NCBI RefSeq assembly: GCF_029227915.1
Contig: NC_079875.1
Coordinates: 24,994,001-25,058,000, forward strand
DNA: 64,000 bases
Direction of reading: 5' to 3'
Source: Hydractinia symbiolongicarpus
Taxonomy: Eukaryota; Cnidaria; Hydrozoa; Anthoathecata; Hydractiniidae
Shown: positions 22,195 through 62,025 of the stretch, piece after piece
How positions within the stretch are numbered: the first letter of the stretch is position 1
Layout: each line of letters begins with the position of its first letter
Translations under genes and position numbers: made by a program
Notes under the pieces: generated by a model
Databases searched by the model: none
What the model was told of the DNA's origin: nothing
Seen by the model: the letters and a program-made list of their open reading frames with translations, nothing else

Positions 22195-22300
22195 TCGGCA
22201 ACATCAAAGATTTTTTTCGGCAACATCAAAGGAAAATGACGATATCAACTTTGCCTGTCACAGACAGACGGACACACTTAGCGTATTATTATAGAGATAA
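22195..22300 (+). repeat. Dispersed element tail (GGCAACATCAAAGG ... ATTATTATAGAGATA)
   Basis: It shares CAACATCAAAGGAAAATGA, ACTTTGCCTGT, a GACAGACGGACACA run and TATTATTATA with 52905-53000. The satellite begins immediately at its end. Confidence 0.6.
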
Positions 22301-38355: not shown

Positions 38356-38568
<213 letters not shown>

Positions 38569-39030
38569 CCTAGATTGACCTTATGGCGACATACCCAAAA
38601 ATATTACCTTAGGGTGACACCTAAAAATAACTATTTTTTTGGAAAAATTATCCATTGACGACAAAGATCTGCTGCTATGCTTCTTTTGTACAGGTATTAA
38701 CATGCCATCGTAAAAACCTGCTAAAAATTATAAAAGATATATAATTCTTGGTCGCCTTACCGTTTTTTTGTCGCCTTAACGAAAATAGTATCACTGGATC
38801 GGGCTTATGGCGACAATATATGTCGCCCTAAAGACGTTTTTGTGACATCTTCCAAAAAATACAAAAAGCTGACTTGACGTCGAAATACAGTAAATTATGC
38901 CTATAGCGAACACCTAGTAATAGGGCCACCCACGATGGCTCTAAAGTCTTTTGTAAAATATGAAGAGCGAGTGCGAAATGTCTTATGCGAGATGATGGCT
39001 ATTAGCTTCGTGCGCAAAAATTTAGCTTAA

Positions 39031-39650
39031 AGGCTCGTTTCCATTTGAGTGCATTTTCCGCTATAGCACAAAAGCTCTCGAGCTTATTGTTGGCGCATGC
39101 GCACTTAGAAAAAATTACTGCTTGTTAAGAGATTTTTTGTGCTCGAGAGCAGCTCTTGAGCTCAGTGTCAAAGTTGAATTCATTCTACTTTTGGCGACGT
39201 TGTTTTTCTCTCTAACACAAATAGCCAATGATATTTGAGTATTTTAAACTATTTCGTAATTTGCCAGTCGTCAGCAAAATTTCAAAAACATAAGCAATAA
39301 TAAATCTGAAAATGGCGGACAACGAAGAGACATGTGTTTCTCCAGACGAAAATGAACTTGAAATAAATATGCTCTATCATAAAATTTTGCAGCAACAACC
39401 AAACAATTCTAACGAAGAAACTACTGTTGATGTTGCGGCAATAAGACCTCAAGAGGATTATAATATTGAAAGTTTTATCCCGGATATAGAATCATATCCG
39501 TGTTTATGGAATACTACCACTAGGTCCCATCATGACCAGAACATGCGTATTACTGGTTGGAAACAGTTGTCCAAACGGTTTGGAAAACCAGGTCGGTTTG
39601 CTGTCTTTTTATTTTTAGCTAATCAGCTTTAACTATAAAGTACATGTCCA
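39031..39650 (+). mobile_element. Truncated second PIF/Harbinger copy, left end
   Basis: It begins AGGCTCGTTTCC right after TAA, parallel to AGGCCGTTTTCC at the end of the first copy. The MADF exon follows 280 bp in. The element ends where LINE sequence begins near 39.65 kb; no transposase is left. Confidence 0.6.
39312..39591 (+). pseudogene. First exon of a MADF protein in the truncated Harbinger copy
   Basis: The frame starts ATGGCGGACAACG and gives about 93 codons: an acidic N-terminus, then the start of a MADF domain (ESYPCLWNTTTRSHHDQN, GWKQLSKRFGKP) ending at CCAG/GTCGGT in phase 1, the same intron position and phase as the complete gene at 33485. The second exon with the rest of MADF and BESS is missing. 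It lacks the polyglutamine tract, so it is a distinct family. Confidence 0.65.
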
Positions 39651-39660
39651 CCCAACTCTG

Positions 39661-40587
39661 TTAAAAAAGAACTTGCGCAAACTCATATTTTACGAACGAA
39701 CAGATCTTTCGTCATGCGATTTCGAACCTTTGTATCAAACGAAAGATGTAAACAACGCTTGGAAATATTTGAGAACCATTTTGACAACGTTATTCAACAA
39801 ACATGCACCCATTATAACAAAGCGAATCAGGGGTTCCCTATGCCCCTGGTTGTCAGCTAATATTAAGAAGAATATTAATGTACGTGATCAACTTCTGCGT
39901 AAATTCCGGAAATCGAAAAGTTCACCGATTGGGATTCTTACAAACAGCTAAGAAACACTTGTACATACCAAATACGAAAATCGAGAAATGATTACCATCA
40001 CTTTTATACTCGAACACTTTTTGAAAGTTTTTTGCCACAGTAGCAGTCAGACTAAAGAAAATCGCTTTTCTGTTAAAAGAATTTGTATTGAGTGTTCCGC
40101 GTCCAAGTAATATTAAAACAAAAACTGTTTTTGCCTTTAGGTATGTTTCGAATTTATTCGTACAGAAAGAGTTAAAAAACCTGATACGTAAAAAAGCTAC
40201 CGTCATAGATGATTTGCCGAATGGGATGTTAAAGGATTGTAGGGAGGAAATAGCAAAACCTTAACACACATCATCAACCTTTCCCTTAAAACTGCAACTG
40301 TACCCAAAGATTGGAAAACTGCGAAAATAACTCCACTACACAAAAGTGGAAACGTTACTGATGCAAATAACTATAGACCTATATCTATACTCCCCGTTGT
40401 TTCTAAAATACTAGAAAAGGCTGTTCAACACCAACTTATGAACTACCTGGAAGAAAAAAACCTTCTTATAGATAAACAGTTCGGTTACAGGAGAAAGCGT
40501 TCAACGGAGCTAGCGACCACTTTATTTATTGACACCATCAGAAAAGCAGGCGACAAAGGACATCTCGGGAATGAAGAACCAAAATAA
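39661..40587 (+). pseudogene. LINE (non-LTR retrotransposon) fragment: linker and N-terminal reverse transcriptase
   Basis: A first open part (39661-39951) encodes the region between endonuclease and RT: NNAWKYLRTIL, KHAPIITKRIRG, CPWLSANIKK, RDQLLRKFRKSK. After frameshifts and stops an RT N-terminus appears at about 40257-40587: VPKDWKTAKITPLHKSG, NNYRPISILPVVSKILEKAV, then QFGYRRKRSTELA. The catalytic YxDD part is absent. The pattern fits the Jockey/CR1-like clades. It is cut at both ends and dead, and abuts the truncated Harbinger copy. Confidence 0.75.
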
Positions 40588-40589
40588 GT

Positions 40590-41820
40590 TTCTTGAAAGT
40601 CTGTGGAATAAAATCTGCATTCTAAGCAAATTAAATCAATCTTGCTTGCATTTCATTTTTATCGCATATAATTATCCACACACAAATAAACAGAACGTGC
40701 TCGCATAAGATATTTCGAACTTGCAGTCATTATTTTTCTCGCGCGCATCAAATGTTGTCTCCTTCTCTCTTTGTATTTTCCAACGAGCTTTCAGGGCCAT
40801 CGTAGCTAATTTTTTTAAGAGCTAATGACGGCAAATAATCTTTACATAGCCAACACTACTGATAGCGGACACATTTTCTCAGAATGTCTTAGCAATTTAG
40901 AGAATATAGTTTATTTCATTAAGAGATGAGATAAAAGCGGCAACAAAATTACCATAGTTCTAATCTTACTCGAGAATTCGAAGCATTGAACTACTGAAAT
41001 TCCAGCAGTAGCATCCCTAACTTTTTGAAACCTGCAGCTACGAGTCTCAAAGTGAGGTTGACGAGGTTTGGTCTTATTGAGATTTTAATATCTAGCCTGC
41101 GTTGAGTAAAGTTTGCTTAACCGACGTCCAAATACAGTTTACGTTAAGTTCTGTGGGTCAATTTTCCAGGAAACAAGGTTCGCTATTTAAAATTTCTACC
41201 CCGCAAGTACAGAATCGCAATTTTGTTCTCTGTCCAAGCTGTAAGATGGCGTGCTTGTCCAAGCTGTGAAGATAGTGTGCAGTTTGTTCGTCTAAACTTT
41301 TAGGTAAGATATACAGCGTTAGTGTCTGTGCGCGCACAGGTGTATTTCATTGTAACATTTAATTACAACGTTTAATGTAACTTAGAAATGCGACAAAGCC
41401 TACACATACTATGACTACAAAATTAAAAGACAAGCAACAAAAAAATGTTTATGTAAACATTTGCGTAGTTATTTTCTCAGCCAAACCTAACACGATTTCT
41501 TCCACTTAGACGTGAAAATTAGCATTATGTTCATTAAGATATCGCAACAAAATAATAGGAGACCCATAAAAACAAGAATTTGTGCTCATGCGTATATTAA
41601 ACACAGGTCAGCCACGAGTTTAAGGGGTTTTGTGAAAGAATCTTGGAGATTGCGGGGTCAAATTTTATGAGAAAACTATTCACCTCATGGGGCTGGGTTC
41701 CTGCAAAAATATGTAACGATGTAAATAATTACTTATAAATACAATAAGTTTCTCGTGATTCAGTTGACCACAAAACAAAATTGACCAAAAGATGTTTTCA
41801 CTTTTCTAGCAACATCCACT
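40590..41820. other. Intergenic region; no gene seen
   Basis: AT-rich with short local duplications (TCCAAGCTGT at 41237 and 41259). No exon set supported. Confidence 0.4.
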
Positions 41821-43565
41821 TTAGCCACAAATTCCCAAATGGTTTTTGGCCACTTGCTGTTGATGAAGTCTCAATCTACGAAGATTTACAATTCTCGTCC
41901 TAACTTGTTTAATGTTGAAATCAAATTGTTTGGCAAATTCTTCCATTTCTCCACGGCCTAAAAACATACAAATATAAAATTCTAGAATGAGATAAAATGT
42001 CGGGGCAGCATTTCCTCATTTCAACTAAAGCAGCAAAAACGTGCAGGCAAAGAAAGTTAATATACGAGATTATTCAAACTACAATCCCACCGCACTTGAA
42101 CAATTTGGAATATATGCATATGTAACGATTTTGAATTGCAACAAAATATTGACTTTTTCTAAAATTTACTTGAGAAACTTTTGAAATTAATTAGGATTTT
42201 CAAAGTTCGTGCGTGAAATTATAATACAAATCTTTATAGCACTGTTTCGCAAGTTTAAACTTTAAATCTACAGTAACCTCAGAAGACCTGAAGGTAGTGT
42301 AATATCCAATACAGAACGAAAAATCCTAGGTAAAGTATCAATTAAAAAATATTAACCAAGGTTGCGCTTGTTGCATGAACGGCGATATTGGCAGTGCTTT
42401 CGTTAACATGATAAAATTCAAGTAAATATTCAAAATTTTAATATAGTCACACAAGTTCATAGCTATAAGCAGGCTGAAAACAGTGTAACAAGATTAGTTA
42501 TGAACAAATTTCGGAATGCTGGTTGTTTAGAAGTTTGAAAACGAAACGTTGAATTTTAGTTTTTAACTAGCAGTTCAACAAAATCAACACTTATTAAGAG
42601 AGTATTAGTGGTGGCGGTGTGAAAAAAATTTAAAATCATTCATTTTTATTTTACTATTGTTTGTTGTTAAATTAAGAGAACTCAATATGCAGTTTACTAA
42701 CGTTCAGTGATCATACCAAAAAATAAACTAACTAGAAAGCTAGCCACGGAGAAACAGCTACTATCCCGCTAACCTAATTTTTAGCTATTTTAAACATCAA
42801 CTGTCAATACTCAAAAACTTATATCATACGTTGCTATGGTTATGTTTATTGTTTAATAATATTTTACAAGATTTTATAGAGCATATAGCATCATAAACGC
42901 TTCACATAAAGAAAAAAATTATGAAAGGGGTTAACTTTTCCTTACACATGGATGTGCTTAATATGTGCGTAATACCCTTTTGAAAAAAACAACTTTATAG
43001 TAAGTTCAGTTTAAAGAAAAAACACGAAACAGTCTGGTTTTAACACTGGGCTAAGCACTTAGTAGAGCTAAACTGTGTTGAACATGCGTATAGGTGTAAT
43101 ACCCTTTTTTAAAAAGATTTATTGCAACTTCGATTTCAATAAAAACACAAGGAACAGCCTGTCGTTATCCCGTTCTGCTAAAACAATGGCTCAACAATTT
43201 TATTCCGCAGAAAACGTCTTCAGAAAAACAATAAATGGCGTAGCTACCTAACTGCATTTAGCATAAGAATTATTGCTTAAGATTATTGTTGTAGACAAAC
43301 TGCATTTGGCTACTTTTCAGCTTCACAACCCCAACGTAAAAATAAATAATATTAGCTAGGATAAAAACTCATATTAAACTGAATAACACCCTTAAAAGAA
43401 TAAGGAATAAATAACTTTTTCAGTGATACAACTAACAAGAATACTAACTGGGATATCCGCGTTCCTTTTTCAGATGGTCTGCAAATGCCACATCAAAGGC
43501 ATCTTTGCTTTCCTCTGACCACAATGTATACATTCGCTGAGAATTAAGTCTTTTGCCATTTTGGT
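41821..43565 (-). CDS. Homeodomain-like C-terminus of the tyrosine-recombinase gene (two exons)
   Basis: Exons 43449-43565 and 41821-41957 (stop TAA), joined in phase 1 (CCCA/GTTAGT to TTTTTAG/GCCG). Across the junction the peptide reads YTLWSEESKDAFDVAFADHL, KKERGYPSRGEMEEFAKQFD, FNIKQVRTRIVNLRRLRL. It has the homeodomain layout: helix 1 Phe in the DAFDVAF segment, loop with Tyr-Pro, helix 2 with EEFA, and recognition helix QVRTRIVNLRR retaining the Asn and Arg equivalent to N51 and R53, but with Arg-Ile in place of Trp-Phe. The join restores a continuous fold, which supports the splice model. It probably gives DNA binding to the upstream recombinase-like and SET parts. It could instead be a Myb-like helix-turn-helix. 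Confidence 0.65.
42950..43250. repeat. Dispersed repeat related to 6050-6470
   Basis: Both regions share AATAAAAACACA, GGAACAGCCTGT, GTTATCCCGTT and GGGCTAAGCACTTAGTA modules. Located in the intron between 41957 and 43449. Confidence 0.45.
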
Positions 43566-43647
43566 CTAATAAAAAAGTGACTAAATTTAAAAGAACAAAA
43601 CAAGGCAAACAAATGTTTTTTCAATAGACAAAAAATGAAAAACTTAC

Positions 43648-45164
43648 TAGCGATTTCTTTGCATCCAGAAACTTTTTTAAAGTCATTGTCACTATCTGAC
43701 CCTAAATATTTAGTTTCTGATGTTGGAATCAAAATTTTTCGAACCAGCACTTAATTTTGGGAGCTTATAAAAACTTACCTTGTGTTTCCTTCGATGAAAC
43801 TTCATAGTCACTATCATCATCAACACTCAAGTTTTCATCTAATAATGTAAAATATTGGTAAAACCTGATACCACCTCTGTACATAACGTTAAAGGTCCAT
43901 AGGAATTGCTAGGAATGTTCCCTACGAAATTTAAAAACACACAAAATTACTTACCATTTGAGCTTTCTTCGTGACTATCTTTCGAATCTAAAAATATATT
44001 TCGGTGTGCACTATTGTTTAACTGCAATAATGATATACAAAAAGTAACTGACAAAATTTCATCACTGACAGAACGGCTTTACACAGGGTGAACATATTTC
44101 TAAAAATTATTTTTGTGCATGAGTGGGACTGCTGACGTCAGCAATATTTTTAAACTCTTATATCTCCAAGCATTCGTTAAAATTACACAATAGTATACAA
44201 TATTTTGACAATTGTTTTAAGCTCTACACAATAGAAGGAACGCCAAATAAATTTCTGACAGTTTTTCGTGTCTGTCATCAAAATTCAAATAACTAATCTA
44301 TTTCATTGTTTTTTCTGCCGAAGTGAATTTTTCCTTGGGCCTTATCGAATAGTCTATATTACAATATTAAAGTTCAGTGTGTCTGTATGTGACTTTTGCA
44401 AAGTGGATTTCACTTTTTATAGTTTCCAACAAAGCCAATAAAACATCACCTATAAAATTGTTCTGTAATTTCCCAAACTTTTACATTATAACAATATTGA
44501 CGCCAAATAAAAGTATACTAAGATTAGTGAAGCCATTGCATTGCACTTTTAAATTTAAAGCCACATAACTTGCAAACAGGTGGAAAAAACTGACATTATC
44601 CCCTGCTAAAACAAGGTCAATTTCCTAAAGCTTGGTCAACCTACTCATTTTGGAACAGATGGATTAACGAGTCAACAAAAACCCTTTAAATCACTACATT
44701 TTTTCAACCATTCATTAAAATATTTTCTCTATTACCATTTTTATCAGTGTTCCAAGCTTTACACGATACAGGTAACAGCTAGCATTATAAAAAAAATGTT
44801 TCTCTGCATCGGCGTGTCATTGCTGACATCAAAATTCAAATTTTAAATGGCAGATGTTCTTTGTTTCTTTTTTTTTTTTGGTAAGTGGATTTTTCCATGG
44901 GCTTCTATATTAATTAGCAATAATAAGTAGCCTGAACATCCATCCATATACTTAAAAGTCGGCTATAATTTACATGCCAATTTTAAGAAACCCTAATCTC
45001 CAAAGCAATAGAATTTTTAAACAGCCTTTTATGAAAATATTATTTATACACAGAGGGTAGAATACCTTTGCAGTTTTTCTGAGACAACTTCCGTTTTGGA
45101 TACTTCTTTATATTAGGCTGCGCTTGTTCCACACATTTTTGTCTTTTTAAAACATCTTTATTAC
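43648..45164 (-). CDS. Acidic/basic linker microexons of the tyrosine-recombinase gene
   Basis: Coding order: 45066-45164 (99 nt), 43955-43987 (33 nt), 43779-43838 (60 nt), 43648-43749 (102 nt). Each is a multiple of three, opens and closes in phase 1, and has clear AG and GTAAG/GTATT borders. The first is Lys-rich (KRQKCVEQAQ, KKYPKRKLSQKNCK) and may be a nuclear signal. The next two are acidic (KDSHEESSN, DDDSDYEVSSKE). The last has LVRKILIPTSETKYLGSDSD. Because all are symmetric, any could be skipped without breaking the frame. Confidence 0.6.
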
Positions 45165-45352
45165 CTGAAACATTAAAACACTTGGTATGAAACACGCACA
45201 TAAATTTTAACGTAGGTTATTGACACAAAACATTAAAATATGGTAATCTTTTTAGAGACATCACTACGGATCATTTGTCAGCCTTACAAAGTAATAAGGG
45301 CATTAGATTTTATCTGCTAAATAATTTTTTTGGCCTTAAAGTAAATGTTTAC

Positions 45353-46712
45353 CTTGCAGTGGTTTACTCTTCCTTTTCTTTTCCACAACTAATGTCACCT
45401 CTGAGGATGTCTTCTCTTCAACATCAATCTCTGAGGAGTTTACAGCCCCCGACAGTGTCTTTTTTTTCCTCTCCTCTACTAATGTTGTCTTCGAGGAAGC
45501 CTTCTCTTCAACTTCATTCTTCGAGAAGTTTACGTCCTCATGAATTGAGTTAACCTTGTCAAATGTTGATGAATTTATCTGGAGCAGTCTATGACCAGTG
45601 GTTTTAAGCTGCATGGAGCCAGCAGGTGCTTGATAGACGTTCTCGTTAATATGTTGTTAATGCCCAAAATGCTTATAAATCAACTGCTTCTCAGCTTCTG
45701 GTAACTGCAGTCTTGCCAGAATAGAAGCAACTCGGTGTCTATTCTTCGTCGCATTAACTGCACCTGTTAGAGATACCCTCTTTAAAATGTAATCAATACA
45801 ATGCCAACCACTTGCATGACTCTGGCTTCTCTGTGTGCTTGCAAAAACGTATGGGTTTTTGTCGTGCACACCTGCATTTTTTCTTACTTCCATGTTGGTT
45901 AAATAATTCATTGCATTTATTGTCTCAGGTGGAAAAATTAACGGGACCAAATGATTAGCTCCTTTGCCAGTTTGGTAAGTGATTAGCATAGAACCTTTAT
46001 TAAATCCCTCAGGCAAATCTTCCTTATCTACCCAGTCTCCTCTCAACGCTTCCTGCCATTGATATAGCTGCAATCTAACAGGTTCACCACCTCTGCGTGC
46101 ACAGAAGATAATAAGAGTTGTAGCCGTTGCTGATCTGATGTCAACAAAAAAATTAGCTGGATGGTCAAAAACATCGATTGAACTCATTATCTTTTTAGAT
46201 TCTGACATTAACATATTTACATCATCCTCTTCGGGAAGATTAACAGGCTTCCTGAGAGTCACATTCTTTCTGTATTGTAGATCGTAGTAAGCATCTCCAA
46301 AGAAATCATTTTCATATAGTTTTAAAACTTGCATGAAATCAGAAACTCTCTGTGCCCTAACATCAGATCCTTGCACTAAAAAATGTCCAGTGAGGAATTT
46401 CGATGTTGATTTTAGCAGATTTAAAATGCTAACTTTTAACCCACTTTTTTGTCCAGATATCGACACTCTTTCAGTATCTCCACTAGACGACTCAACTATG
46501 GTGTTAATTGCTTCACCTAATATAATTACTGTTTCCCTTCTGTACATGTCAGCTGCATTTCCAAGTCGATCAGTTAATTCAACGGAAGACTGTTTGTTAT
46601 AAGCCTTTTGAAAACACAAATAAAGTCGAGCGGTTAGTCTCATGCGCGACCTTGCCAGCTTTTTAGTTTCCGTGACTTTGTCTTGACATGGAGCAGAAAA
46701 GTCTTGATCCAA
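45353..46712 (-). pseudogene. Tyrosine-recombinase-like domain (Crypton-type relative), broken
   Basis: Same large exon as 46663-49101, in the next frame. The start of the domain (KLARSRMRLTARLYLCFQKA) is helical like a core-binding segment. Box I Arg is in IIFCARRGGEPVRLQL; further conserved parts are GKGANHLVPLIFPP, NPYVFASTQ, then HRVASILARLQLPEAE and KHFGH. A TAA at 45657 follows GH, yet the frame continues on in register with QHINENVYQAP, whose Tyr is the likely nucleophile, and on to 45353 (donor GCAAG/GTAAAC, phase 1). The stop removes the presumed nucleophile. One surplus base near 46665-46700 separates this frame from the upstream one. The residues Arg, His-x-x-Ala/Arg, His and Tyr match tyrosine recombinases found in many invertebrate genomes. 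Confidence 0.75.
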
Positions 46713-49101
46713 ACATTAGTATAATTTCATCTGTTTTAACATAATTGCCAACATCGTCTAAAAGTAGCGTATTTAGAAGATCTGCAAAACCACTAGGTAA
46801 TTCCTGAAGGGACGCACATTTGGAAATTGCAACCATTGGAACCGTAAGATTAGTTCCTGCTGATGGACATTCCAGCTGGTGCCTAGACTTATAATTTCTT
46901 GCAAAAAAACCCTTACATGCACAACACATAATCGGTATGTCATCTGTTCCCACAGGGGCCTTTCTTTCCCTCATGAAACATGATTTGCCAGCTTCCACTT
47001 GACTAATATTGTAATCTTTAATTGCCTCTTTTCTAAACTCCTCAATTTTAATATCTTGTTCCTTTGAATTTACTGATAACAATGGGATGACCCGAGGTTC
47101 AAATTTATGTTTAGTAAGGATGTGACGTTTCAGTCTTGTTTGTGGTATCTTGCAGAATAAACAAGGTCTGACAGGCTTTCGATAACCAGTCTTTTTCTTA
47201 GCTGTAGCATTATTTTTGTGCAATGGCTTATCTGTGAAATGGACATTTTCGGTGCTTTCAATACTTTCAGTGTCATTGTCTGAATCAACTACTTCAAGCG
47301 ACTGCTCTAGAACAAGTCCTGAATCATTGACTGGAGTTACCAAACTTGCGCCAGGCAGAGACGTATTTAAATCATGCACATTTGGTAAATCTTGTGATGG
47401 CTGGTCTTTATTTTCTTCATTGTCACTGTCAGGTACATTTATTTTACCAGAAAATGGCTTTATATCTGCACATATTTTTTCCATTTGATCTTCTGAAAAT
47501 AAGTTACTAGAAGAATCATCAAGTTCATCAGTAAAGTCTAGCTGTGATTTACCGAAAGGAATTATTCTAGATCTAGTGGGAGCAGTGGACATTTTTGGTG
47601 TTGAGGCCGATAGTTTACACAACACTGATGAGGTAAATGGTGAAGACCCCCTCAAAGCAACCTGAAAATCTACAGGAATTTCCATTTCCTCATTTTGTTC
47701 TTTTGAATGACAAATGCTAGCACCTGCAGCAATGAGAACATGCTTCTTTTCCAACCTTAAAGGCATATCATCAGACAAAACAGTGGAACCAACTGTGTTA
47801 CTGAACATTTTTGTGTCAACTAATGTGGTTTTAATAGCATTTTCTTGATAAACACTTTTTAGCACAGGTTCATATTTCTCTTGTGATATATTTATTGAAT
47901 CTACTGGAGGAATGGCATTGGCATCTATGGCAATCAGCGAAGATTCTGTCATTTTCAAAGTTGCTGGCAATACAGTGGAAGCAACTGTTCTACAGTTTGC
48001 TGCGTGAATTTCCGTACAAACCATTGCTGCTACACCAGTTGGTGAATGTAGACTTTCTGACACACATTCAAGTTTTTCTTGTTGCATACTGGTCGAATCT
48101 ACTGAAGGAATACTGTCAACACCTGTAACAAGTAGAGCAGGTTTCTCTTCCATATGTGAAGCCACATATTCCGACAATATAGTGGAATCAACCATTTTAC
48201 AGTTAGCTGTTGACATTTTTATGTCAACTAATGTCATTACAGTAGTTGAAGAATTGAGACTATCTAGCACAGGTTCACAATTTTTTTGTGATGCCTTGTT
48301 TAAGGCTACTGAAGTAGCGATATCAGTGTCTGTAGCAAGAAGGGGATGTTTTTCTTCCATATTTTGGGTCACCTTTTTAGGCAATGCTATGGAATCAACT
48401 ATTTTACAGCTAGCTGTGGAAATTCTTGTGTCAACTAATGTCACCGTAGAAGTTGTTAAATAAGAACAGCTGAATTTGTGTAATTGTTTATCTTGTTGCA
48501 TATTGTTTGATTCTCTTGAACAGACAATGCTGGCATCTGTAGCAAGGACAGCACAATTCTCTTTTATATTTGATGCAACATATTTGCTCAATACAGTGGA
48601 ATCAACTATTTTACAGCTCGTGGAGGATACTCCTGTACCAACTGTGTTTACAGCTATTGGAGGAGAAATGTCAAAATTAGTAGCAGGAGGTTTCTTCTCC
48701 ACCTTCGATGCCACATCTTCAGGTAATACAGGGGAACCAACTGTGGTTGTATCAATTAATGCTGTTACAGTAGTTGGCAAATGGAGACTACCATGTGGTT
48801 TATGATTTTTATGTGAAATGATGTTTGAAGCAATTGAAGGAACAACTCCAGTATCTGTAGTAAGGAATGCTGTTTTACAACTCTCCATAGACATTTTTGT
48901 CTTGAGTAACAATGTATTAACAGAATTTTGACATTGAACACTCTCTTTCACAGGTTTCGCTTTTTTGTCATGTATCTTGTTTAAACATGTTGATGAAACA
49001 ATGCTGGTAAAGACAGGCTCAATTTTATGATGCGGTACCTCGTTTGCACCTATTTCACAAATCTTGCTGGTTTCACACTCACTATCGGCTTCAGTTAATA
49101 C
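46663..49101 (-). CDS. Repeat-rich segment with two zinc fingers, N-terminal to the recombinase
   Basis: The exon opens at 49101 (GAATGCAG/GTATTAAC, phase 0). About residues 45-520 hold some seven diverged repeats of 65-72 residues with the pattern LVDTxMSTASCKIVDST, then EEKxxLLATDA, then QEKxEPVLxSL. The stretch 540-640 is Ser/Asp-rich. A C2H2 finger follows (about 649-667, CLFC and HILTKH), then a second zinc-knuckle-like finger (728-747, CCAC and HQLEC). The frame ends DEIILMFGSRLFCSM and stops; one extra base separates it from the recombinase frame. Paired fingers before a tyrosine recombinase suggest DNA or RNA recognition. I know no homologue of the repeat part. Confidence 0.7.
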   Translation of the reverse strand, partial: VLTEADSECETSKICEIGANEVPHHKIEPVFTSIVSSTCLNKIHDKKAKPVKESVQCQNSVNTLLLKTKMSMESCKTAFLTTDTGVVPSIASNIISHKNHKPHGSLHLPTTVTALIDTTTVGSPVLPEDVASKVEKKPPATNFDISPPIAVNTVGTGVSSTSCKIVDSTVLSKYVASNIKENCAVLATDASIVCSRESNNMQQDKQLHKFSCSYLTTSTVTLVDTRISTASCKIVDSIALPKKVTQNMEEKHPLLATDTDIATSVALNKASQKNCEPVLDSLNSSTTVMTLVDIKMSTANCKMVDSTILSEYVASHMEEKPALLVTGVDSIPSVDSTSMQQEKLECVSESLHSPTGVAAMVCTEIHAANCRTVASTVLPATLKMTESSLIAIDANAIPPVDSINISQEKYEPVLKSVYQENAIKTTLVDTKMFSNTVGSTVLSDDMPLRLEKKHVLIAAGASICHSKEQNEEMEIPVDFQVALRGSSPFTSSVLCKLSASTPKMSTAPTRSRIIPFGKSQLDFTDELDDSSSNLFSEDQMEKICADIKPFSGKINVPDSDNEENKDQPSQDLPNVHDLNTSLPGASLVTPVNDSGLVLEQSLEVVDSDNDTESIESTENVHFTDKPLHKNNATAKKKTGYRKPVRPCLFCKIPQTRLKRHILTKHKFEPRVIPLLSVNSKEQDIKIEEFRKEAIKDYNISQVEAGKSCFMRERKAPVGTDDIPIMCCACKGFFARNYKSRHQLECPSAGTNLTVPMVAISKCASLQELPSGFADLLNTLLLDDVGNYVKTDEIILMFGSRLFCSMSRQSHGN

Positions 49102-49294
49102 CTGCATTCAAAAAAAGTAAGTACGAGCCTAAAATGTGAACAGTTAATTGATCTATTGCTAGAGTCCTGATACAAAAAAATTCCTCATATTGTGAATGAA
49201 ATGTGATTATCACAGTTAATATATAGTATTAAGATGATTGGTGCTATTTAAAGGACCTAAATTATTTTTATGAAATTTGTTTAACCCTATTTGG

Positions 49295-49970
49295 TCCGTG
49301 GGGGGGGGGGGGGGATTCCGCCCCCCCCCTGATGGTTTTGTTTTAATAACTCCTTATTGCTTTGTTATATCGCTATGTTACTTACTGAGTGTCAATATTT
49401 ATCTATTAGACACCTGCATGCTAAATTTTTAGGTCCCATACCTGTCAGAGGCTTTGATATTAGCCATTACTCGAAACTACCTCTAAAAATCTCTATGAAA
49501 TCCTTATAATGGGGAAAATATAATAACTCCTGTTAGGATTATCCTTTGAACTTGAAACTTGCAACACAATTTTGTTTGATCAAGAAGAATCATTTTGCAT
49601 AATTTGGACACGTGACTAATCCAATTTCCCGATTTTGTTGGGTTTTACCGGGTTTTCGGGCAATTTTTTATGCGATCCATGTAAGAACCGGAAGATGTGT
49701 TAAATAACTTTTATTTATCTTTCAGAAACTTCAAACAGAATGTAAAAATTCGCTCTAAAACAAACGTAATTAAATTTTAAGCAGATAGTGGCATTTTCAA
49801 CAAATTTCAAGCTTCTGATGACGTCACAGAAAATGGGCTGACGCAAGCAAAAATTGATTGCCGCCATTTTGTTCCTTTTATGACGTACTATAAGTGTGCC
49901 AAGTTTGATTCAATTTGAACAACCTTATGAAAAGTTATTGAGGGGGGGGGGCGGAATGCCCACAATACAA
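49295..49970. mobile_element. MITE-like element with G/C-run terminal inverted repeats (intronic)
   Basis: The left end GTGG(G)n-ATTCCG-(C)9 and the right end (G)10-CGGAAT-GCCCAC are inverted copies of one another. Between them are about 640 bp without an ORF but with GATGACGTCACAG. It lies in the intron between 49101 and 50316. No clear target duplication. Confidence 0.55.
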
Positions 49971-50315
49971 AGTTTCTACACATTCTTTACAACAAGAAAT
50001 TAATTAACAGTTAGTGTGCCTTGTATACGCGAATAAAAAGGTTTTAAACAAGATATCTTGGAAGAATAAAGCTTCATTCATTTCATAGTCTATAAATTAT
50101 TCCACAATTAAAACTTTTGTAAACCTATTTTATACAAAATAAATATAAATTTGTTTTCTAAGTTTATAATTTACATCTTTATGTCTTTCAATTAAATTAG
50201 TATCAAAGTGAAAAAAATGTGTAGTTATACAAAGATATATTGGTATATGCACAAGTGTGTATAAATAACATGAGACATTCTGCAATTTTTGACAGTGACA
50301 ACAAACAAGACATAC

Positions 50316-50567
50316 CTTGTTATCATTTATAATATAACCACTGTCATCAATTCTTTCAGTTTCATCCAATGCATTGCAATATGCATCTTCTAATATAGGA
50401 TATTTTCCCAACTAAAATGGATATGAAAATAGGTCTATTTAGAATGTAAACATTTAGCAAGATACTAAAAATTCCAATTTAAAATAGTTTAAGAACTTAA
50501 AAATAAGTGGAATAATACTTACATGAGAATACAATAAGGTCAAGCTTAACGGCTTTAGGTATAATTT
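50316..50567 (-). CDS. Two small phase-0 exons joining the zinc-finger exon to the repeat exon
   Basis: 50523-50567 (45 nt) and 50316-50411 (96 nt), both phase 0 to 0 with CAG/TAG acceptors and GTAAGT/GTATGT donors. They encode KLYLKPLSLTLLYSH and an acidic stretch beginning LGKYPILEDAYCNALDE. The second joins in frame to VLTEADSECET at 49101. The terminal His of the first may complete a zinc finger begun in the exon at 50811. Confidence 0.6.
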
Positions 50568-50810
50568 CTGAAATCAGAGAAAAAAAAAAAAGATTAAAAT
50601 TACAACAAACTACCGTTAGAGAGGATGTGCAGTCAAAAATTACATTTTCATAAGCAATGGTCATTGCTTATGAAGAAAGAAAACAATTGCCATTATCAAG
50701 AAAACAATTGCCATAATTCTTTTTAAGTGAAACCTTCATTTTTCTGAAATAATCTGTGTTAACCACATGTTAAGATATACCTTTGTATACTGACCCCTTT
50801 ACATTTTTAC

Positions 50811-51104
50811 GAATGCTGGGCTCGTACCCACAACATACTTATCTACTTGTGCCTTTATAAAAGAGGCAGAGGCAACACCATTAGACTTTGATGAATGATA
50901 ATTTTGGCAAGTTTTACAGTAAATAAGAATTACTTCTCCATCGTCATTACATTCATAACCAAGGTTTTGAAAACCCCAGCTATAAACTTTTTGTACTTGG
51001 CATCTCAATGTTTCTGTCGTGTTGAATGAGTAAACAAAAATATCCGACTCAACATAAAGTTGTTGTGAAGAAAAAAACATATTGCGGCCCAGTTCACATG
51101 TCAT
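50811..51104 (-). CDS. BED/TTF-like zinc-finger exon
   Basis: A frame of 98 codons from ATG 51104, ending at GCATTC/GTAAAA (50811) in phase 0. It contains a Trp-Gly-Phe region, then VILIYCKTCQNYH and a downstream FIKAQVDKYVVGTS, leading over the splice to LLYSH. The Cys-x2-Cys, F...G and final His spacing resembles the BED/TTF-type fingers found at the N-termini of transposase-related proteins. An in-frame TGA precedes the ATG. Either a gene starts here, or the exon begins internally at the phase-0 acceptor TTGAG/TCGGAT (51047), which would join the SET exons in frame. Confidence 0.5.
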
Positions 51105-51626
51105 TCACTTTTTTATCATTCTTATTTTAAAATGCGCATTTATTCTTTATAATATGAAACTATCAAGTGTAAATTTCGCCTAATTTTGTGCAATCGATTT
51201 TTATCTTTTGCTACTCTCAATCTAAAAATAGATTCATGGTATACATACATTCGAAAGATTTAATAAAGATCAGGAATGGTTTCTACAAAGAAAAAACAGT
51301 AACACGAAACTTCAAACTTTTTGTGCGCGCATGGATATTATAACTATTATTTATTGTGCGATGCGTGTGATTTATTGCATACAGAAAATAGGGATAGTCC
51401 TTCTTTCGCATAAAAAAGCTAAATGCCGTCCTTAATTCAAAGGGCTGTGCCAGCAACATGGTCAGTTGATGGATTATATCCATAAACTGACAATCACTGA
51501 CAGTCTATGAAATGGATTGTTACTCCCTGCACTGAGATTTTAAGACTGCTTTTAAAACACAAAATTGCAGTTACACACTTTCCGTTCCTGTTTCATTAGG
51601 TATAAGTATATTATTGTCACACTTAC

Positions 51627-52097
51627 ATTTTTTCTCCACCATAACGATGGTGCCTGGTAGTCATATCTGATTTCTTCATTTTTAGTGATGTATTTTTTTT
51701 AATAAAGTATCAAATTAGGCTCATTGTTAAATGTGATAATCCTCATAACAGCATTTGCATATCTTGAAGGTGAGTCATTGATAAATTTAGCAATGCCTTG
51801 TGATCTTGATGCATCAATACTAAATAAAATTATTTCTTGGTTGTGATAAATGCATAATATAAAAATAAATCTTAATTTCATTTATTTTAAGTAAATAACA
51901 ATAGTAGAGTAGATCAGAGAACAAAAAGAAATATTCTTACCAATATTTTTTTCCATGACTTGTGAAAAAAAACATAAAGTTGCCACTCTCATTATCTGCT
52001 TCTCGTACCTCCCCTTCTTTTGCTGTGAGTAGTTCTCCACAATATTTACCTATTGGAGTATCTTTAAAAATTTCTTTAGTGGTGAAAACCCCATATC
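51627..52097 (-). CDS. SET domain exons 2 and 3, one in-frame TAA
   Basis: Exons 51941-52097 (phase 1 to 2) and 51627-51819 (phase 2 to 0). The join reads FFFTSHGKKYCIDASRSQG. SET motifs in order: GYGVFTTKEIF, TPIGKYCGELL, YCIDASRSQGIAKFINDS (the RFINHS motif with Asp for His), then EEIRYDYQAPSLWW (the ELxYDY motif). A TAA at 51699-51701 falls between NLILY and KKYITKNEE in the same frame. SET domains transfer methyl groups from S-adenosylmethionine to lysine, often on histones; the arrangement recalls KMT5A/SET8-like enzymes. The donor at 51626 is GTAAGT in phase 0. The lesion may be real or an assembly error. Confidence 0.8.
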
Positions 52098-52265
52098 CTA
52101 AACAAAGTGGTGGAATGCATGTTAGTAAAAAGTTTTATTTAAAATTTTAACTTTAAAAGAAAAAAAAAAAACTGAATAATTCATCCTACAATATTATTAT
52201 CTAGGGAACCAGACATAATCAATTAGTTATCAAACGCACTATATTGATTATTATTATATTGATTA

Positions 52266-52380
52266 TTATATATTGATTGATATATTATAATATATATTAT
52301 TGATTGATATTTTGATTATTATATATTGATTATATTGATGATTATTATTATTATTTAATTGATTATTAAAATGAATGTAT
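52266..52380. repeat. AT-only simple repeat (ATATTGATTATT)n
   Basis: Degenerate ATTGATTATTATA repeats in the first intron of the SET gene. Confidence 0.7.
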
Positions 52381-52639
52381 CTATTTTGGTAAGAAATACA
52401 TTCAAAAATTACACATTGAATTGTGCTATTTCTAGTGTTAGCCACATAAATTTTAGGTAATAGCTTAGTACTCAAATATTGTTCACACTGTTGTTCATGT
52501 TGAGATATAAGGTAGTGAGGTATATTTATGCAGCTCTCTCAAACTATTGTACTTCAAGTGTAGGCAGATTTTGCGGTTGACATTATGCAGTTGAAACCAC
52601 ACGTTTCGTTTTTTATAAAATCATAGCATTTATATTAGG

Positions 52640-53000
52640 ATTTGAAGGTTTTTGATGACGTCATCAACCCGTTTATTCTGAAACGGATTTGGGGAGCCAG
52701 GTTTCGAAAAATTACCCAAATTTGTCATAGGTGGTCCCTAGTTACCCACACGGTGAAAAATCATTGACGTCACCACCTTGCTTTGGCCTCAAAGATTTAG
52801 GTGCACTGTAATGGCTTCATTTATTTAATATAAGATATTGACGTTAAAGTAGTATTATTAACGCCGCACCGTAACGTCAGAAAATTTAACATATTAGACA
52901 TGCATTTTTCGACAACATCAAAGGAAAATGAACACATCCACTTTGCCTGTTACGGACACACACACAGACACAGTCTCTGTATTATTATATAGATAAAATG
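52640..53000 (+). mobile_element. Dispersed element with TGACGTCA and a GACACAGTCTCTGTATTATTATATAG end
   Basis: The start has TTTTTGATGACGTCATCAACC; the last 95 bp match 22195-22300. Non-coding. Confidence 0.5.
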
Positions 53001-53082
53001 TAGCGTAAGGTACCAAATCGTAGATGCTATTATAAAAACAAACAAAAAAAAAACTTTTTTACTAAATGCAAAGTGGAGATAG

Positions 53083-53345
53083 ATCATCATCATCATCATT
53101 CTCGGCTTAACGTCCGTTTTCCATGCTAGCATGGGTTGGACGGGGTATATTAATGACCCTCTTCCAATCTGGATCTAGACTGTGTTAGATCTAGATTCAC
53201 ATATTTTACATGGCTAGCCTCACAAATATTGAATGCTCATTTTGGGCTACACAGACCCAATCAGGGTCTGCGCTCTACCAGACAAGTCCCCGCAACATCC
53301 AACGGCCTACACATTGTGCCATGTCCCCAATAGACCTATTTCAAT
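53083..53345 (-). mobile_element. tRNA-derived SINE (family 2), 3' half with (ATG)n tail
   Basis: On the minus strand it reads TAGGCCGTTGGATGTTG, GTCTGGTAGAGCGCAG, TGTGAGGCTAGCCATGTAAA, then CCATGCTAGCATGGAAAACG, GACGTTAAGCCGAG and (ATG)n. The body matches 54960-55150. The last module (CATGCTAGCATGG...GGACGTTAA) resembles a conserved tail domain I recall from SINEs of cephalopods and other invertebrates. Confidence 0.75.
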
Positions 53346-54845
53346 ATCCATTTCCATTCCGCAAAATACACAGCCGGAATAGACATACTAACATGAAAAC
53401 TAGGTTAGTTTAGAGACAATTTTAATTTTCCAGCGAAGTGATGCACATATAGTTTGTTCAACTTTATTATTTCTTTAACTTGTTAAATAGGCAAATTATG
53501 AACTTTTGGTAAAAGCAATAGAAAATGGCATTTATTTTATACCCATTGGGCTTATTAAAGGTTGAATGATTACACACTAGCACTAGCATTGCCTACTACT
53601 AGCTAGTTGGAGCTTTAACCAACGTTGTTGACATATATATATATATACAATTTATTCTTTGTTATTGGATATCTTTTATTTCTTAAAACATCTGTAAATA
53701 ACATTATGACTTGGCTATCCTAAGCATGTTGGATTGGTGGTATTTGGCTGAATACTGGTCTTCATGTAATATATTCAACATATTGTAATAAGAGCAATGC
53801 AATCACCCAAGGTAAAAGCATGCCTTACTCATAAGTACCCTTGAGCCTTGATTTTTTAAAAAAATATTGCCTGTATAAATGTTACAGTTTCAGCTACAGA
53901 AAATTGTTTTTTAAATTAACAAATTTTTCTGTTAATAAGTAGTATCGTTATTCCACGTAAGGTATAATTATGGCTATTGTAATTTAATTTTTACCTAAAA
54001 GCAAAGATAAAAATATGTAAATTATTTCTTATAAGGGTGCTTGTTGTAGACAAATCTGATAGAACTAACATAAAAACCTTTGTGTATTATACTTCTTGAG
54101 TTTCTGAATTTAAGCATTCTACTGTAAAAAGGCAATAGATTTTTTAAAAGAATACTATGTATTTTAATAAAATAATAATCAATAGGCATTTTTTTTTCTC
54201 CTTTTGAAGCTAAGAGAATTGTAGATGAATAAACCGGTCACGATTTGTTTCAAGTTACATGTGGTTTTAATGTACCCACTTAGATATATGTTTAATATTT
54301 GATCGATTTACCACAATAACTTAACCAGATAGTCTAGGAAAGTTAAGAAAGTTTTAGATATAGACGGCCTTACAACTAATAAATGGCCTGGTTTTGTTTG
54401 TTAAAGATAACCCTATAACCTTTTACTGTCATTATCAAAATAGTTGATCTTGCTCTGTCAAGTTAATTCCAAGGAGAATAAGAACAATTTAACCTTAAAT
54501 CTATTTTCTTAAAGAAGAGAGGAACACTGTATATACCTACTAAATATTTTTATTTATGGAAATGTGTAATCTTTGACAAAAACATTTTCATAAGAACAGC
54601 AGCATGTTCAGTTGTAGGTTTATCATTTCTTGAACATGTTCAAGGAATGATGAACTTACAATACATACTAATATGAATATGAACAGACAAACCGAAACAA
54701 TAAACAATAAGTACACTGGATTGAGCCAAAATATGTTTATTAATGTATACTAAATGGAAAGATTAAAGCATTTTAGCAGGGGAGTGTGACAATAATTAAA
54801 GGATATATAGCTGGGCAGAACATCATCTCTGTATACATAGCCATT

Positions 54846-55190
54846 TTGTGGCGCTGCAGATTTGTGGTGATAGCTCTCGTACTCTGTGCAGGAGACCAGG
54901 GTTCAATTCCTCTTGACGGCGATTCAACATGGGCGAGTGAATGTTACCATAGCCCTGGGTTAACCCAAGCCATGTGTGGGCCGTTGGATGTTGCCGGGCG
55001 TTGTCTAGTAGAGCGCGGGCCCTAATTGGGTCTGCGTAGCTCAAAATGAGCATTAAATACTCTAGGACTCTGCATCTAAGCCATGGATCCTCCTGGAAAT
55101 AATAGACAGGGTATATCCCTCGATATTTGTGAGGCTAGCCATGTAAAATATGCACATCTATCTATCATCTATAACATCCTACATAATAAT
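54846..55190 (+). mobile_element. tRNA-derived SINE (family 2), with Pol III head
   Basis: A-box-like GTGGTGATAGCTC and B box GGTTCAATTCC (54899-54909). The body contains CCATAGCCCTGGGTTAACCC, GGGCCGTTGGATGTTGCC, GTCTAGTAGAGCG and GTAGCTCAAAATGAGCATT. The last modules parallel the family 1 body (GTCTAGTTGAGCG, GTAGCTCAAATGGGAGC), so the families share a body. Located in the first intron of the SET gene. Confidence 0.8.
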
Positions 55191-55619
55191 ATCTGGCTAG
55201 GATAAAAGCTGGCTAACTTTTTTAGGAAAATAATTATAACATATATAGCTAATTATAATATATATATATAAATTATAATTATTAAAATTACATGAAGTTG
55301 CAGTAAACTAGGTAAACATTTTAGACCTTACAGTATAGAATACAAACTTTTTGGATTAAAGTTGCCATAAATACACACTAATATCAATAATTATTTACAG
55401 TTTTTGTCACACTACCACTGTTAATAGTCTATATACTTTTATCCACTACGATTCTTTCAATATGGCAGTTGAAAATGATAAATTTGTTGATACTAATGTC
55501 AGAACAGCTAGTAAACAACTTAGCGTCCTGAACTTTATCTAAAGTAACCTCGTTTTCATGCAACGTTTTGATTTTTTGCTACCACGACTGATCATGAAAA
55601 GGCGATATTAAAATAGGTC

Positions 55620-55750
55620 TATTCCCCTCGCATGGCTTGGGTTAACCTGGAGCTTTGGTAACATTAACATTCAGTCAACCATGATAAATCTCCCACAAGG
55701 AGTATCGCACCCTGGTCTCCTGCACAAAGTACAAGAGTTAAAACCACTAT
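55620..55750 (-). mobile_element. tRNA-derived SINE (family 2), 5' half
   Basis: The reverse complement matches the head and first body part of 54846-55190: CTTGTACTTTGTGCAGGAG, ACCAGGGTGCGATACTCC, then GGTTAACCCAAGCCATG. The B box is degraded (GGTGCGATACTCC). Confidence 0.75.
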
Positions 55751-56477
55751 ATAAAGCTACGGCGTCATGAAAAACAAATGCAGAGTGCTTTTATAGGGTG
55801 CTTTTGTAACTCTAACCTTAAAATCTACCATATAGTACATATCAAAGTTTCAAAGCTATCAAGTACTATGTTGTAATTTTAGCTGTTTCAATTACTTTTC
55901 ATTACGCTAACAACTAGGAGCTACCATGTTTTTGTTCACAATTTCTCGCTTGGGTAAAATAAATAAAAACAAGACCTGCAACCCTTGAACTAATGTCTTA
56001 CACCCTTAGCATGGGAAGCTCTTTATAGAGCATGGACATCAGGAGTAGGGTTCCAGACCAGTATAAATAGCTAAATGGGTAGCTATATATACTTTCGATT
56101 AAAATTTAACAAAAATTTGAGCAAAATATAGAGAAAAGCAGAAAATATCGTCAAAATTCATTGTGATACAATAAAGCAAAATAGAGAGAAAAGCAGAAAA
56201 TATCGTTTAAATTCATCATTCCAAGTTCTAAGGATCTTTCAGCAAACTGGGGAACTATTGAGAATGGCAAATATGACAACTAGCAAGATGTGCAGATGTA
56301 GCAGCTTTTATATATATTGTTGGTACTGTCCTTGGCCTGATTTATCCGTGATAAGACTGGCCCTGCATTTTTTGGTCGTAGTAGCTAAAGGTCTACACCA
56401 GGCAAAAAAATAAACAAATGCAGGGTCAGTCAGATTACATGAAAAAAGCTGACAACAGTAAGGACTTATTGTTTTAC

Positions 56478-56601
56478 CTATTTCTTCACTGATAAGCTCT
56501 TTAACTAAATACTTAGGATCATGGGCCAGCACTTTTCTCAGTTCATCATTCTCTTCACCACTGGTTGATTTTTTTTTTCTCCGAGCTCTTATCGCGTCCA
56601 T
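56478..56601 (-). CDS. First exon of the SET-domain gene
   Basis: ATG at 56601 in strong context (ACAAAATGGA). 124 nt encode MDAIRARRKKKSTSGEENDE (basic then acidic), then LAHDPKYLVKELISEEI, ending GAAATAG/GTAAAA in phase 1. This joins in phase to the SET exon at 52097, where the glycine-tyrosine-glycine start of SET is completed across the splice. The 4.4-kb intron holds SINEs. A promoter-like block directly precedes the ATG. Confidence 0.65.
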
Positions 56602-56604
56602 TTT

Positions 56605-56740
56605 GTTTTATCACATGGACTTTTTGCAGCCTGGCCCGGCCAAGGCGGGAAATATGCAAATGAAGTGTCGCCCTTGGCCAATCATGTTTTCAGGAATCCC
56701 CGCGATTTTTAATGGCGCGCAAAACAGTGCACATAACACA
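56605..56740 (-). promoter_or_regulatory. Compact promoter-like region of the SET gene
   Basis: Read on the minus strand within 130 bp upstream of the ATG: ATTGG (inverted CCAAT), ATTTGCAT (octamer), TTTCCCGCC (a match to E2F sites), and GC-rich CCTTGGCCGGGCC. The block is GC-rich against AT-rich surroundings. No TATA box near the ATG. Confidence 0.5.
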
Positions 56741-57185
56741 CTTGACTCACAGGACCGTCCTTTCCCCTGTTTTGATATAAAATTAAACATGTACTTATAC
56801 TACACTATAATCATTCAAAAATATCTGCATATAATGGCACTGTTTATATATCAATTTTGCGCGGAAGAGCAGCCAGACCTTAAATGAAAATTCTCTTATG
56901 ATGTACCAATTTCGATTCCAGAATCATTATTTGATATTCTATGAATCCGTGTACGAGAAACACAACCCTTGGATCAAGATTAGTGATGTACCTTTTCTCC
57001 TCGAAAGCAACAAAGTTCCGAATTCATGAATATGGAAACAGTTGTTAGTGATCTTATCACTTCAGGGATGAGATCTATCTGTTTATTCTCGATCGTTTGC
57101 GTGAGTTTGATATGCAATTTTAGATAAGCGTGTAGGATTGGCTGACAACACGATGACAATGACAAATAACCAGCTGCTTAAAATA

Positions 57186-57415
57186 GTGTAGATGGTGTAG
57201 TGGTAGCGCATTCGATTTGTAATCATAAGGATTCAGATTCGAGTCCCCACTCCAGCGCACTTGTCAGCCAATTTGGTGCCATCTACTGACCGCTAACTGG
57301 CCTGTGTGGCAGGCAATGATATGCGTACCTCTGGCGTTAATATAACACAGTTGCAGTCGGAGGGGGAAGCCAACCGTTAAGATGGAATCCCCAAGGACGT
57401 TAAAACTTCCCGTTA
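57186..57415 (+). mobile_element. tRNA-derived SINE (family 3, tRNA-Thr-like head)
   Basis: Head GGTGTAGTGGTAGCGCA, anticodon-loop region TTTGTAA (TGT, Thr-like) and B-box-like GATTCGAGTCC. The body ends GGAATCCCCAAGGACGTTAAA and the tail is (ACTT)n. Degenerate cloverleaf, so a SINE and not a functional tRNA. Confidence 0.75.
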
Positions 57416-57419
57416 CTTA

Positions 57420-57645
57420 CTTACTTTTTGTGGAGTATAAAGCTTGGGTTCAAACCACGCCACAGACTATAAAGTGTGAATCTGCTAAGCGTTCAGCACT
57501 AGAAATTGATATCTTAGGCAGATGCCCTTGCGCGATTGCTGTGGTTGCATGACTTTCGTCGCTTGGAGCTTTAAATGCACTAGCATTCCCTTGGCAGGAT
57601 CCTCATCGATAGCAATACCAAAAGAAACTGAAGAGGCTATGGGTA
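57420..57645 (+). mobile_element. tRNA-derived SINE (family 1), degraded copy
   Basis: Follows the family 3 SINE directly. B box GGTTCAAACCA, then GACTATAAAGTGTGAATCTG, TGATATCTTAGGCAG, GCGATTGCTGTGGT and ACTGAAGAGGCTAT as in 24501-24795. Confidence 0.75.
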
Positions 57646-57649
57646 AACA

Positions 57650-58170
57650 AACTTTCGGCGAAACCGGCGAATTAAAAGGAATTTTCAGTAGAATTGGGAC
57701 ATAAAATTTATTTCATATTTCAATAAGTCTTTAAAACATATGTAACAAAGGTTATTAAACTTTCTGACAAATAGGTCAGAATTAATAAAAGGAAAACTCG
57801 AGTTTTCCTTATCTATATCTACTGTAAAAAAAGAAAGGATTGAACCAAAAGGTGAATTATATATAAATAATGAATACACTGAATGACTTAATATTAAAAA
57901 TGGTACAAGTTCTGTGAAAAGCTTTATTAATGAAAAATATGTCGATAAAATGTTGTCGTTTGCTTACACTAATTTATCTATATCTATAACGAAATTTATT
58001 TTCGGTCATTTGGCTTGTTATAACCCAATATAAACTGCAAAAAAATGAAGACATACAAAAGACAACAAAGATTCTGAAGCGTCTAAGATAATCTCGCGAT
58101 AAACATTACTGACCTTATTGACCGTATTGTTTTAACAATCTATAATAAAGCACAATAAATTATACCAAAT
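57650..58170. other. AT-rich flank; no gene seen
   Basis: Short open stretches only, no recognisable domain or splice-consistent exon set. Confidence 0.4.
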
Positions 58171-58174
58171 TGTG

Positions 58175-61740: not shown

Positions 61741-62025
61741 TATAATAACACAATTTAATATAAAAACATAACTAAGGTGACATTTCAATATTAGTGTTGC
61801 ATCGTCCTAATTGATCAAGTACTTATTACGCATAAACATAGTTGGCTGTATACGAATAACGCACACTGTTTTACGGGCACATTCTCATTCTTGTCGTTCC
61901 ATACTTTATGACAGAACAGACAGCAACTGCCCAAGCTGTCTGGTCACTACAAACATACAAACAAAATGGACGGATTGTCAACAATAACCGAAAACAAAAT
62001 TACTCAAATTCAAACTTCATCAACA
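61741..62025. other. Unique spacer between satellite arms
   Basis: About 285 bp of non-repeat sequence (for example GCCCAAGCTGTCTGGTCAC). No ORF. A single forward satellite monomer follows at 62026-62129. Confidence 0.7.

Follow-up and report, generated by a model that had tools for sequence, protein, structure and literature searches.

A KMT5A-like SET domain fused to a tyrosine recombinase in a probable decayed DNA transposon of Hydractinia symbiolongicarpus

The stretch analyzed here (the window; 64,000 nucleotides, positions 24,994,001 to 25,058,000 of contig NC_079875.1, assembly GCF_029227915.1) comes from the hydrozoan Hydractinia symbiolongicarpus. An earlier inspection of its letters alone (the sequence-only reading) had proposed that one minus-strand gene joins a SET domain, zinc fingers, a tyrosine recombinase (YR) and a homeodomain-like end. 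Our sequence analysis confirmed that observation: the gene runs from 56601 to 41821 in 10 exons, and its product combines a SET domain resembling that of KMT5A with an acidic linker, two finger-like Cys/His clusters, the YR and a tail resembling a helix-turn-helix (HTH). The mobile unit to which it belongs, 38567-65107, far exceeds the span first described (Table 1).

A script verified the splice sites of exons 1-5 and their phases, and the boundaries of exons 6-9 were set by hand from sequence context. For exons 1-5, the agreeing phases of collinear exons were as the sequence-only reading had them; the charged phase-1 microexons it had described are exons 5-8. The three SET exons (56601-56478, 52097-51941 and 51819-51627), whose GT/AG sites are present and phases agree, match Pfam SET when joined with X at their one stop (E 2.3e-14, whole model, positions 1-105), so the SET domain proposed at 56601-51627 stands, with an in-frame stop inside it. 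Compared with PDB entries, this SET is closest to KMT5A (3.8e-12), with KMT2D next (2.1e-11), and the SET of the Hydra predicted protein P0115 matches KMT5A at 4.8e-19 and the next family at 1.2e-8. The domain is thus nearest to KMT5A, an H4K20 methyltransferase by the titles of the structure entries matched, and the same activity is predicted for it by relationship.

SET exon 3 ends in phase 0 and joins directly to exon 4, which begins in phase 0 at 49101 and carries a long open frame (814 aa). The claim that SET and the rest form one gene therefore holds, since the phases fit and relatives are predicted as single chains, with the amendment that the join leads from 51627 to 49101 and not through a TTF/BED-like piece between them. 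Open reading frames (ORFs) 49107-46663 and 46715-45657 align to residues 254-899 of Hydra P0101. This bears out the region read as repeats and two fingers (49101-46663), although neither Cys/His cluster matched a Pfam family. A single-exon Pfam search found the YR weakly (0.027), and its identity was settled by fold comparison, which revealed the core-binding and catalytic domains of the Xer/Cre/lambda Int fold. Among 12 aligned sequences the catalytic R, R, H and Y are present in all and K in 11. In the predicted structure of P0115, the top 50 Foldseek matches listed were all SET domains, and the YR part was recovered by VIA-align. The recombinase read at 46712-45353 is thus a genuine YR fold, broken by a stop. 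The end called homeodomain-like (43565-41821) is conserved and aligns to Hydra tails; its last exon (10) has no Pfam match, and the label reflects a visual impression of a helix-turn-helix.

The TTF/BED finger that had been assigned to the gene at 51104-50811 is judged not to belong to it. This piece of intron 3 was rejected as a protein part: BLAST against 124 proteins gave it nothing better than E 0.55, and ~220 bp of it recurs in the genome at 85.6% and 78.3% identity, as expected of a dispersed repeat. The start of an ORF in L036, by eye TTF plus hAT-like, is related to it. Another dispersed repeat lies near it in intron 3 (49313-49949; 88% identical to L040 4253-4912).

By comparison with Hydra P0101, an in-frame TAA (51701-51699) lies inside SET exon 3, and within exon 4 a frameshift at ~46678-46690 parts the frame of the fingers from that of the YR. 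A further TAA (45659-45657) splits the YR, leaving HFGH on one side and the catalytic-tyrosine segment NENVYQAP on the other. Given two stops and a frameshift, the window locus is a dead element copy and not a working regulator; of the proposed mobile-element-derived regulator or targeted recombinase, the mobile-element origin is what survives. The passage from fingers to YR had been taken for an exon junction. We rejected a splice junction at 46.7 kb, because homologues stay in one frame there and the closest paralogue found, L039, keeps the motif that the window lost; the frame changes inside one exon, at ~46.68-46.69 kb. L039 is itself decayed, lies on another contig, shares 80.7-83.6% DNA identity over four pieces and is without the frameshift. 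In a second broken copy (L040), the SET and YR pieces lie 2.1 kb apart.

Predicted proteins of other animals contain the same fusion. Relatives with SET and recombinase in one protein, on whose existence the single-gene proposal had been made to hang, are found in Hydra: P0115 (1030 aa) is complete, with SET, fingers, YR and tail, and P0101 (1023 aa) has a partly cut SET followed by fingers, YR and tail. Hydra P0103 (500 aa) comprises SET and fingers, and P0078 (634 aa) comprises SET, fingers and part of the YR. The domain order recurs, with a cut SET, in Clytia P0118, where an apparent SET end is joined to fingers, YR and tail; UniRef calls this protein "SET domain-containing protein", and a Pfam scan of it gave no family. 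In medaka P0124, a SET domain (1.4e-17) is joined to a part that resembles a YR (E 1.2e-11 against a Hydractinia YR, with 23% identity); among the species-named proteins of the search that found 21 matches, most of them bearing no species name, medaka was the only non-hydrozoan. A search with the Hydra SET-to-finger stretch returned 5 proteins, all from Hydra. Hydra P0102 has a PHD finger ahead of its SET and ends before the fingers, and in some copies the element protein may have a reader in addition to its writer.

A sister family with the same gene (family A; 17.5-kb elements) resides in the same genome, which was searched over 480.9 Mb in 76 contigs. The window YR gave at least 113 genome matches, nine of which are open frames of 568 aa that all score alike. 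The gene of family A has an exon ending INDHI-G followed by GYGVFTT, equal in place and phase to window exons 1 and 2, a SET domain (Pfam 7.8e-13), phase-0 microexons after it, the 568-aa finger-YR ORF, and a tail exon (L051 3056-2940) that is the counterpart of window exon 9 (E 7.8e-5). Copies C12 and C15 match at 99.97% across 3,474 bp and at 100% across 2,053 bp on the SET side, with a 3.5-kb C15 insert between these segments, and on the 3' side at 99.97% across 3,601 bp; C12 and C8 are 99.94% identical over 3,221 bp on the 5' side. Family A copies abut TA arrays at their ends. Such near-identity between copies on different chromosomes suggests recent movement or amplification, into or beside TA microsatellites. 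In the C12 copy (five pieces), an ORF scan found nothing above 150 aa except the YR; multi-exon genes could escape such a scan, and no DDE or reverse-transcriptase profile search was made.

With the Hydra SET as query, 137 genome matches were listed. Merging matches within 3 kb gave 92 YR and 121 SET loci among the matches listed, and a same-strand SET within 12 kb lies upstream of 33 of these 92 YR loci and downstream of one; on the opposite strand there is none on either side. The 33 pairs are not independent, since spacings of ~4.3, 8.0, 6.1-6.2 and 9.9 kb recur, and they represent perhaps ten families. The window locus falls outside the 33 because its SET is absent from the Hydra-SET matches listed. 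Other SET matches, including the multi-copy SET ORFs L044, L045 and L050, are unpaired with a YR and form a second kind of repeated SET-bearing sequence; the L045 ORF also has a DBF zinc finger (PF07535, 5.3e-12).

The element in the window has terminal inverted repeats (TIRs) and TA arrays at both ends, the right ones lying past the window: a (TA)51 array occupies 65108-65209, outside the right end and 1.1 kb past the window's edge. Read from 65107 downwards (in L057), the right end matches the left at 19 of 22 positions, a score reached by 0 of 1000 shuffles; the family A TIR matches at 18/23 (5/1000 shuffles). Genome-wide, zero-mismatch matches to the window TIR are this element's two ends only. 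Up to 2 mismatches there are 14 matches (reversed control, 1), and of the 12 further places L060 and L061 were inspected, neither of which adjoins a TA array. Arrays of (TA)≥20 number 6 in 295,531 bp, all at element ends, in a sample picked because of the elements.

From the four ends of the window element and family A we built an end pattern, in which five TA units and three unspecified bases precede the end motif common to them. The genome contains this pattern 21 times exactly and 2 times with one mismatch, and the reversed control gave no match. The 21 exact matches form 8 inverted pairs (seven spaced 17.4-17.5 kb, and the window pair at 26.6 kb) plus 5 single ends. Within 20 kb, 20/21 have a YR match and 20/21 a SET (the window SET being placed from its exons). 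At 12 inspected ends the TA runs measure 28-394 bp, these ends having been selected by a pattern that needs 10 bp of TA, and a same-strand comparison of their outer flanks at E 1e-10 showed no mutual similarity. Because the pattern demands TA, the right repeat was also searched alone: it occurs at 9 places, 8 of them among the TA-flanked ones (reversed control, 0), a count free of TA selection that covers right ends only. The one-mismatch end motifs beside TA are at C7:12854425 and C9:4983051. The former lies ~4.9 kb away from the YR of a different family (C7:12859309) and hints at further families with similar ends.

Table 1. Positions of the gene, the element and associated features (window coordinates).
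Feature	Position	Strand	Content
Exon 1	56478..56601	-	start codon, basic N-terminus; 3' end ...ISEEI-G, phase 1
Exon 2	51941..52097	-	SET N-terminal half (GYGVFTT...)
Exon 3	51627..51819	-	SET C-terminal half (IDAS...NDSPSRYANAVM...EIRYDY...WWRKN); donor phase 0; in-frame TAA 51701-51699
Exon 4	45353..49101	-	repeat-rich acidic linker, two finger-like clusters, YR; frameshift ~46678-46690; TAA 45659-45657
Exon 5	45066..45164	-	charged; phase 1 to 1
Exon 6	43955..43987	-	short, charged; phase 1 to 1
Exon 7	43779..43838	-	short, charged; phase 1 to 1
Exon 8	43648..43716	-	short, charged; phase 1 to 1
Exon 9	43449..43565	-	HTH-like tail, first half (MYTLWSEESKDAFDVAFADHLKKERGYP); aligns to Hydra P0101 941-979 and Clytia P0046 468-506
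Exon 10	41821..41957	-	tail second half (RGEMEEFAKQFDFNIKQVRTRIVN...) and stop codon; P0101 980-1009, 60% identity
TTF/BED-like ORF (by eye) in intron 3	50811..51104	-	dispersed repeat, judged outside the gene
Mobile element	38567..64000 in window, to 65107 beyond	-	26,541 bp overall; window holds most
(TA)103 array	38361..38566		directly outside left (3') element end
Left terminal inverted repeat	38567..38591	+	22-bp core CTAGATTGACCTTATGGCGACA at 38570-38591
94-bp tandem arrays upstream of gene	58162-61733 and, inverted, 62131-63639 (58162..63639)		units carry end-like motif

The 94-bp tandem arrays upstream of the gene may be additional, putative binding sites. The end-like motif in their units occurs 32 times in window 57001-63700 (shuffled mean 0.005) and not in 1-37000, and 32 times in family A upstream sequence (shuffled mean 0.01); these motifs were picked after the arrays had been seen, and the repeat units are not independent. 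In its strict form the end motif (CCTTANGGNGACA) has no mismatch-free match in the arrays, one mismatch being needed. Elsewhere in the window, two tandem arrays of 124-bp units lie in opposite orientation (22295-24501 and 26245-32736, ~18 and 52 copies); laid out like the element's inverted 94-bp arrays, they may mark a second, different element. A lone reverse-transcriptase-like fragment, by eye of the LINE (long interspersed nuclear element) type, sits inside the element on the plus strand (40243-40587).

We consider it likely that the locus holds a large DNA transposon, now decayed, whose single gene of many exons fuses a KMT5A/SETD8-like SET domain, finger-like clusters, an Xer/Cre-type YR and an HTH-like tail, and whose YR integrates at TA repeats. 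In the mechanism we propose, the YR would excise the element as a circle while the fingers and tail bind the terminal and subterminal repeats. At the circle junction the two inverted terminal repeats would stand face to face with a short TA tract between them, in a lox/FRT-like arrangement, and this alternating TA spacer could pair with any (TA)n microsatellite, where the circle would then integrate. Since the spacer would be homologous to every TA microsatellite, TA on both sides of the element would be explained. The SET domain might methylate nucleosomes (H4K20, by relationship) at the donor or target, and so open the site, time recombination or counter silencing. The sequence itself shows how the gene is built, the fusion, the two ends of the element with their TA flanks, the sister family with its near-identical copies and the lost frame of the window copy; the circle, the pairing of TA, the identity of the mobilizing enzyme and each role given to SET are inferences. 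Whether hydrozoans, and possibly teleosts, harbor in such elements a separate superfamily of animal YR transposons, defined by a KMT5A-type SET fused to the recombinase and by a TIR-(TA)n-TIR circle junction recombining with TA microsatellites, is for us an evenly balanced question.

Several points weigh against this interpretation. Transposition, the circle, transcription and methylation are predictions, not observations. Exon 3 of the window SET, taken alone, is closer to KMT2D than to KMT5A, and the first His of box II (HxxR) is replaced by Thr in 12/12 aligned YRs. The TIRs of the window element and family A are only partly alike: shuffles reach the score in 1/1000 cases for left against left, 237/1000 for right against right, and 30 and 210/1000 crosswise. 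No upstream SET was found for 59/92 YR loci among the matches listed. The 12 inspected ends were picked by a pattern requiring TA, and the TA arrays may be part of the element instead of its target.

A further difficulty is that TIRs are not described for such YR elements in the available text of two papers (PMC3212892, PMC3627910), which leaves room for a different mobilizing enzyme: the SET-YR gene would be cargo of a TIR transposon moved in trans by a TA-targeting DDE enzyme, and the YR would merely resolve intermediates. We regard this as unlikely. TIRs and TA flanks would suit Tc1/mariner-like TA targeting, MarCry-1_FO is described as a Mariner-Crypton composite with TIRs and TA duplications (PMC3212892, available text), and a multi-exon transposase could have escaped our ORF scan; against it stand the C12 copy, where that scan saw nothing above 150 aa besides the YR, the TA runs at the 12 TA-selected ends, which exceed a 2-bp target, and the YR of family A, which retains its catalytic residues.

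We see little chance that the gene is a host (domesticated) regulator in which SET, fingers and recombinase became fused into a chromatin factor. ZMYM and KCTD1 are host genes that took up Crypton recombinases, and the long open frame of exon 4, the intact splice sites and an exact end sequence that exists only at this element would agree with such a history. The stops in SET and YR and the frameshift argue otherwise, as do the enclosure of the gene by element ends with TIRs and TA flanks, the decay of the closest paralogue found, which lies on a different contig, and the multi-copy, near-identical sister family. Scarcely any weight falls on two adjacent genes, a SET gene ending at 51627 and a recombinase gene starting near 51104: a 2.5-kb intron with the TTF-like ORF does separate SET from the rest, but the phase-0 donor matches the phase-0 acceptor, single predicted proteins span from SET to fingers or beyond (Hydra P0115, P0101 and P0103; Clytia P0118), and in family A the stretch from SET to YR contains phase-0 microexons.

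If the superfamily reading is true, the fusion would be a naturally occurring recombinase equipped with a chromatin writer of its own. With a Cre/Xer-type enzyme and a histone methyltransferase on one chain in animal chromatin, it would become testable whether mobile elements write histone marks to gain access or to escape silencing, and likewise how a site-specific recombinase is aimed at a common, low-information target such as TA repeats. The near-identical copies in Hydractinia suggest amplification recent enough for the mechanism to be studied in a laboratory cnidarian.

No published description of a SET-YR transposon was found in the open-licence literature, among the matches listed; in the available text of a paper containing both Crypton and SET domain, the two are unrelated. 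The nearest known elements are described here from the available parts of the papers cited. A typical YR site consists of two inverted 11-13 bp sites around a 6-8 bp segment (PMC3212892). YR-using transposons are stated to lack TIRs and target-site duplications (PMC3627910), a rule from which, as regards TIRs, this element departs. Cryptons (CryptonA; Kojima and Jurka 2011, PMC3212892) are similar in being DNA elements in which the YR is the only large ORF found and in being known from cnidarians and medaka. Animal Cryptons are, however, described as having neither terminal repeats nor a C-terminal domain (PMC3212892), whereas the elements here have 22-23 bp TIRs, TA flanks, a SET domain, fingers, an HTH-like tail, tandem arrays, many exons and lengths of 17-27 kb. 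A Crypton should have no TIRs, and short terminal direct repeats or none; repeats matching at 19/22 (window) and 18/23 (family A) set these elements apart. In the available text of PMC3212892, "methyltransferase" is absent and "set" occurs twice, only as the ordinary word.

DIRS/Pat YR retrotransposons share the YR and, in some groups, inverted repeats, and some YR retrotransposons encode a methyltransferase domain (PMC4157794, available text). Unlike them, the family A C12 copy has, by ORF scan, only the YR above 150 aa, where DIRS/Pat elements encode reverse transcriptase, and the added enzyme here is a SET domain. MarCry-1_FO combines TIRs, flanking TA and a Crypton-type YR but has a DDE transposase (PMC3212892, available text), of which the ORF scan saw none here. 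KMT5A (SETD8/SET8) is the best sequence and structure relative of the element's SET part, which differs in being fused to a recombinase and in reading NDSPS in the window where KMT5A has NHSKS, its activity being a prediction. SETMAR likewise joins a SET domain to a transposase, but there the partner is a DDE mariner enzyme and the product is one primate host gene rather than a mobile, multi-copy family.

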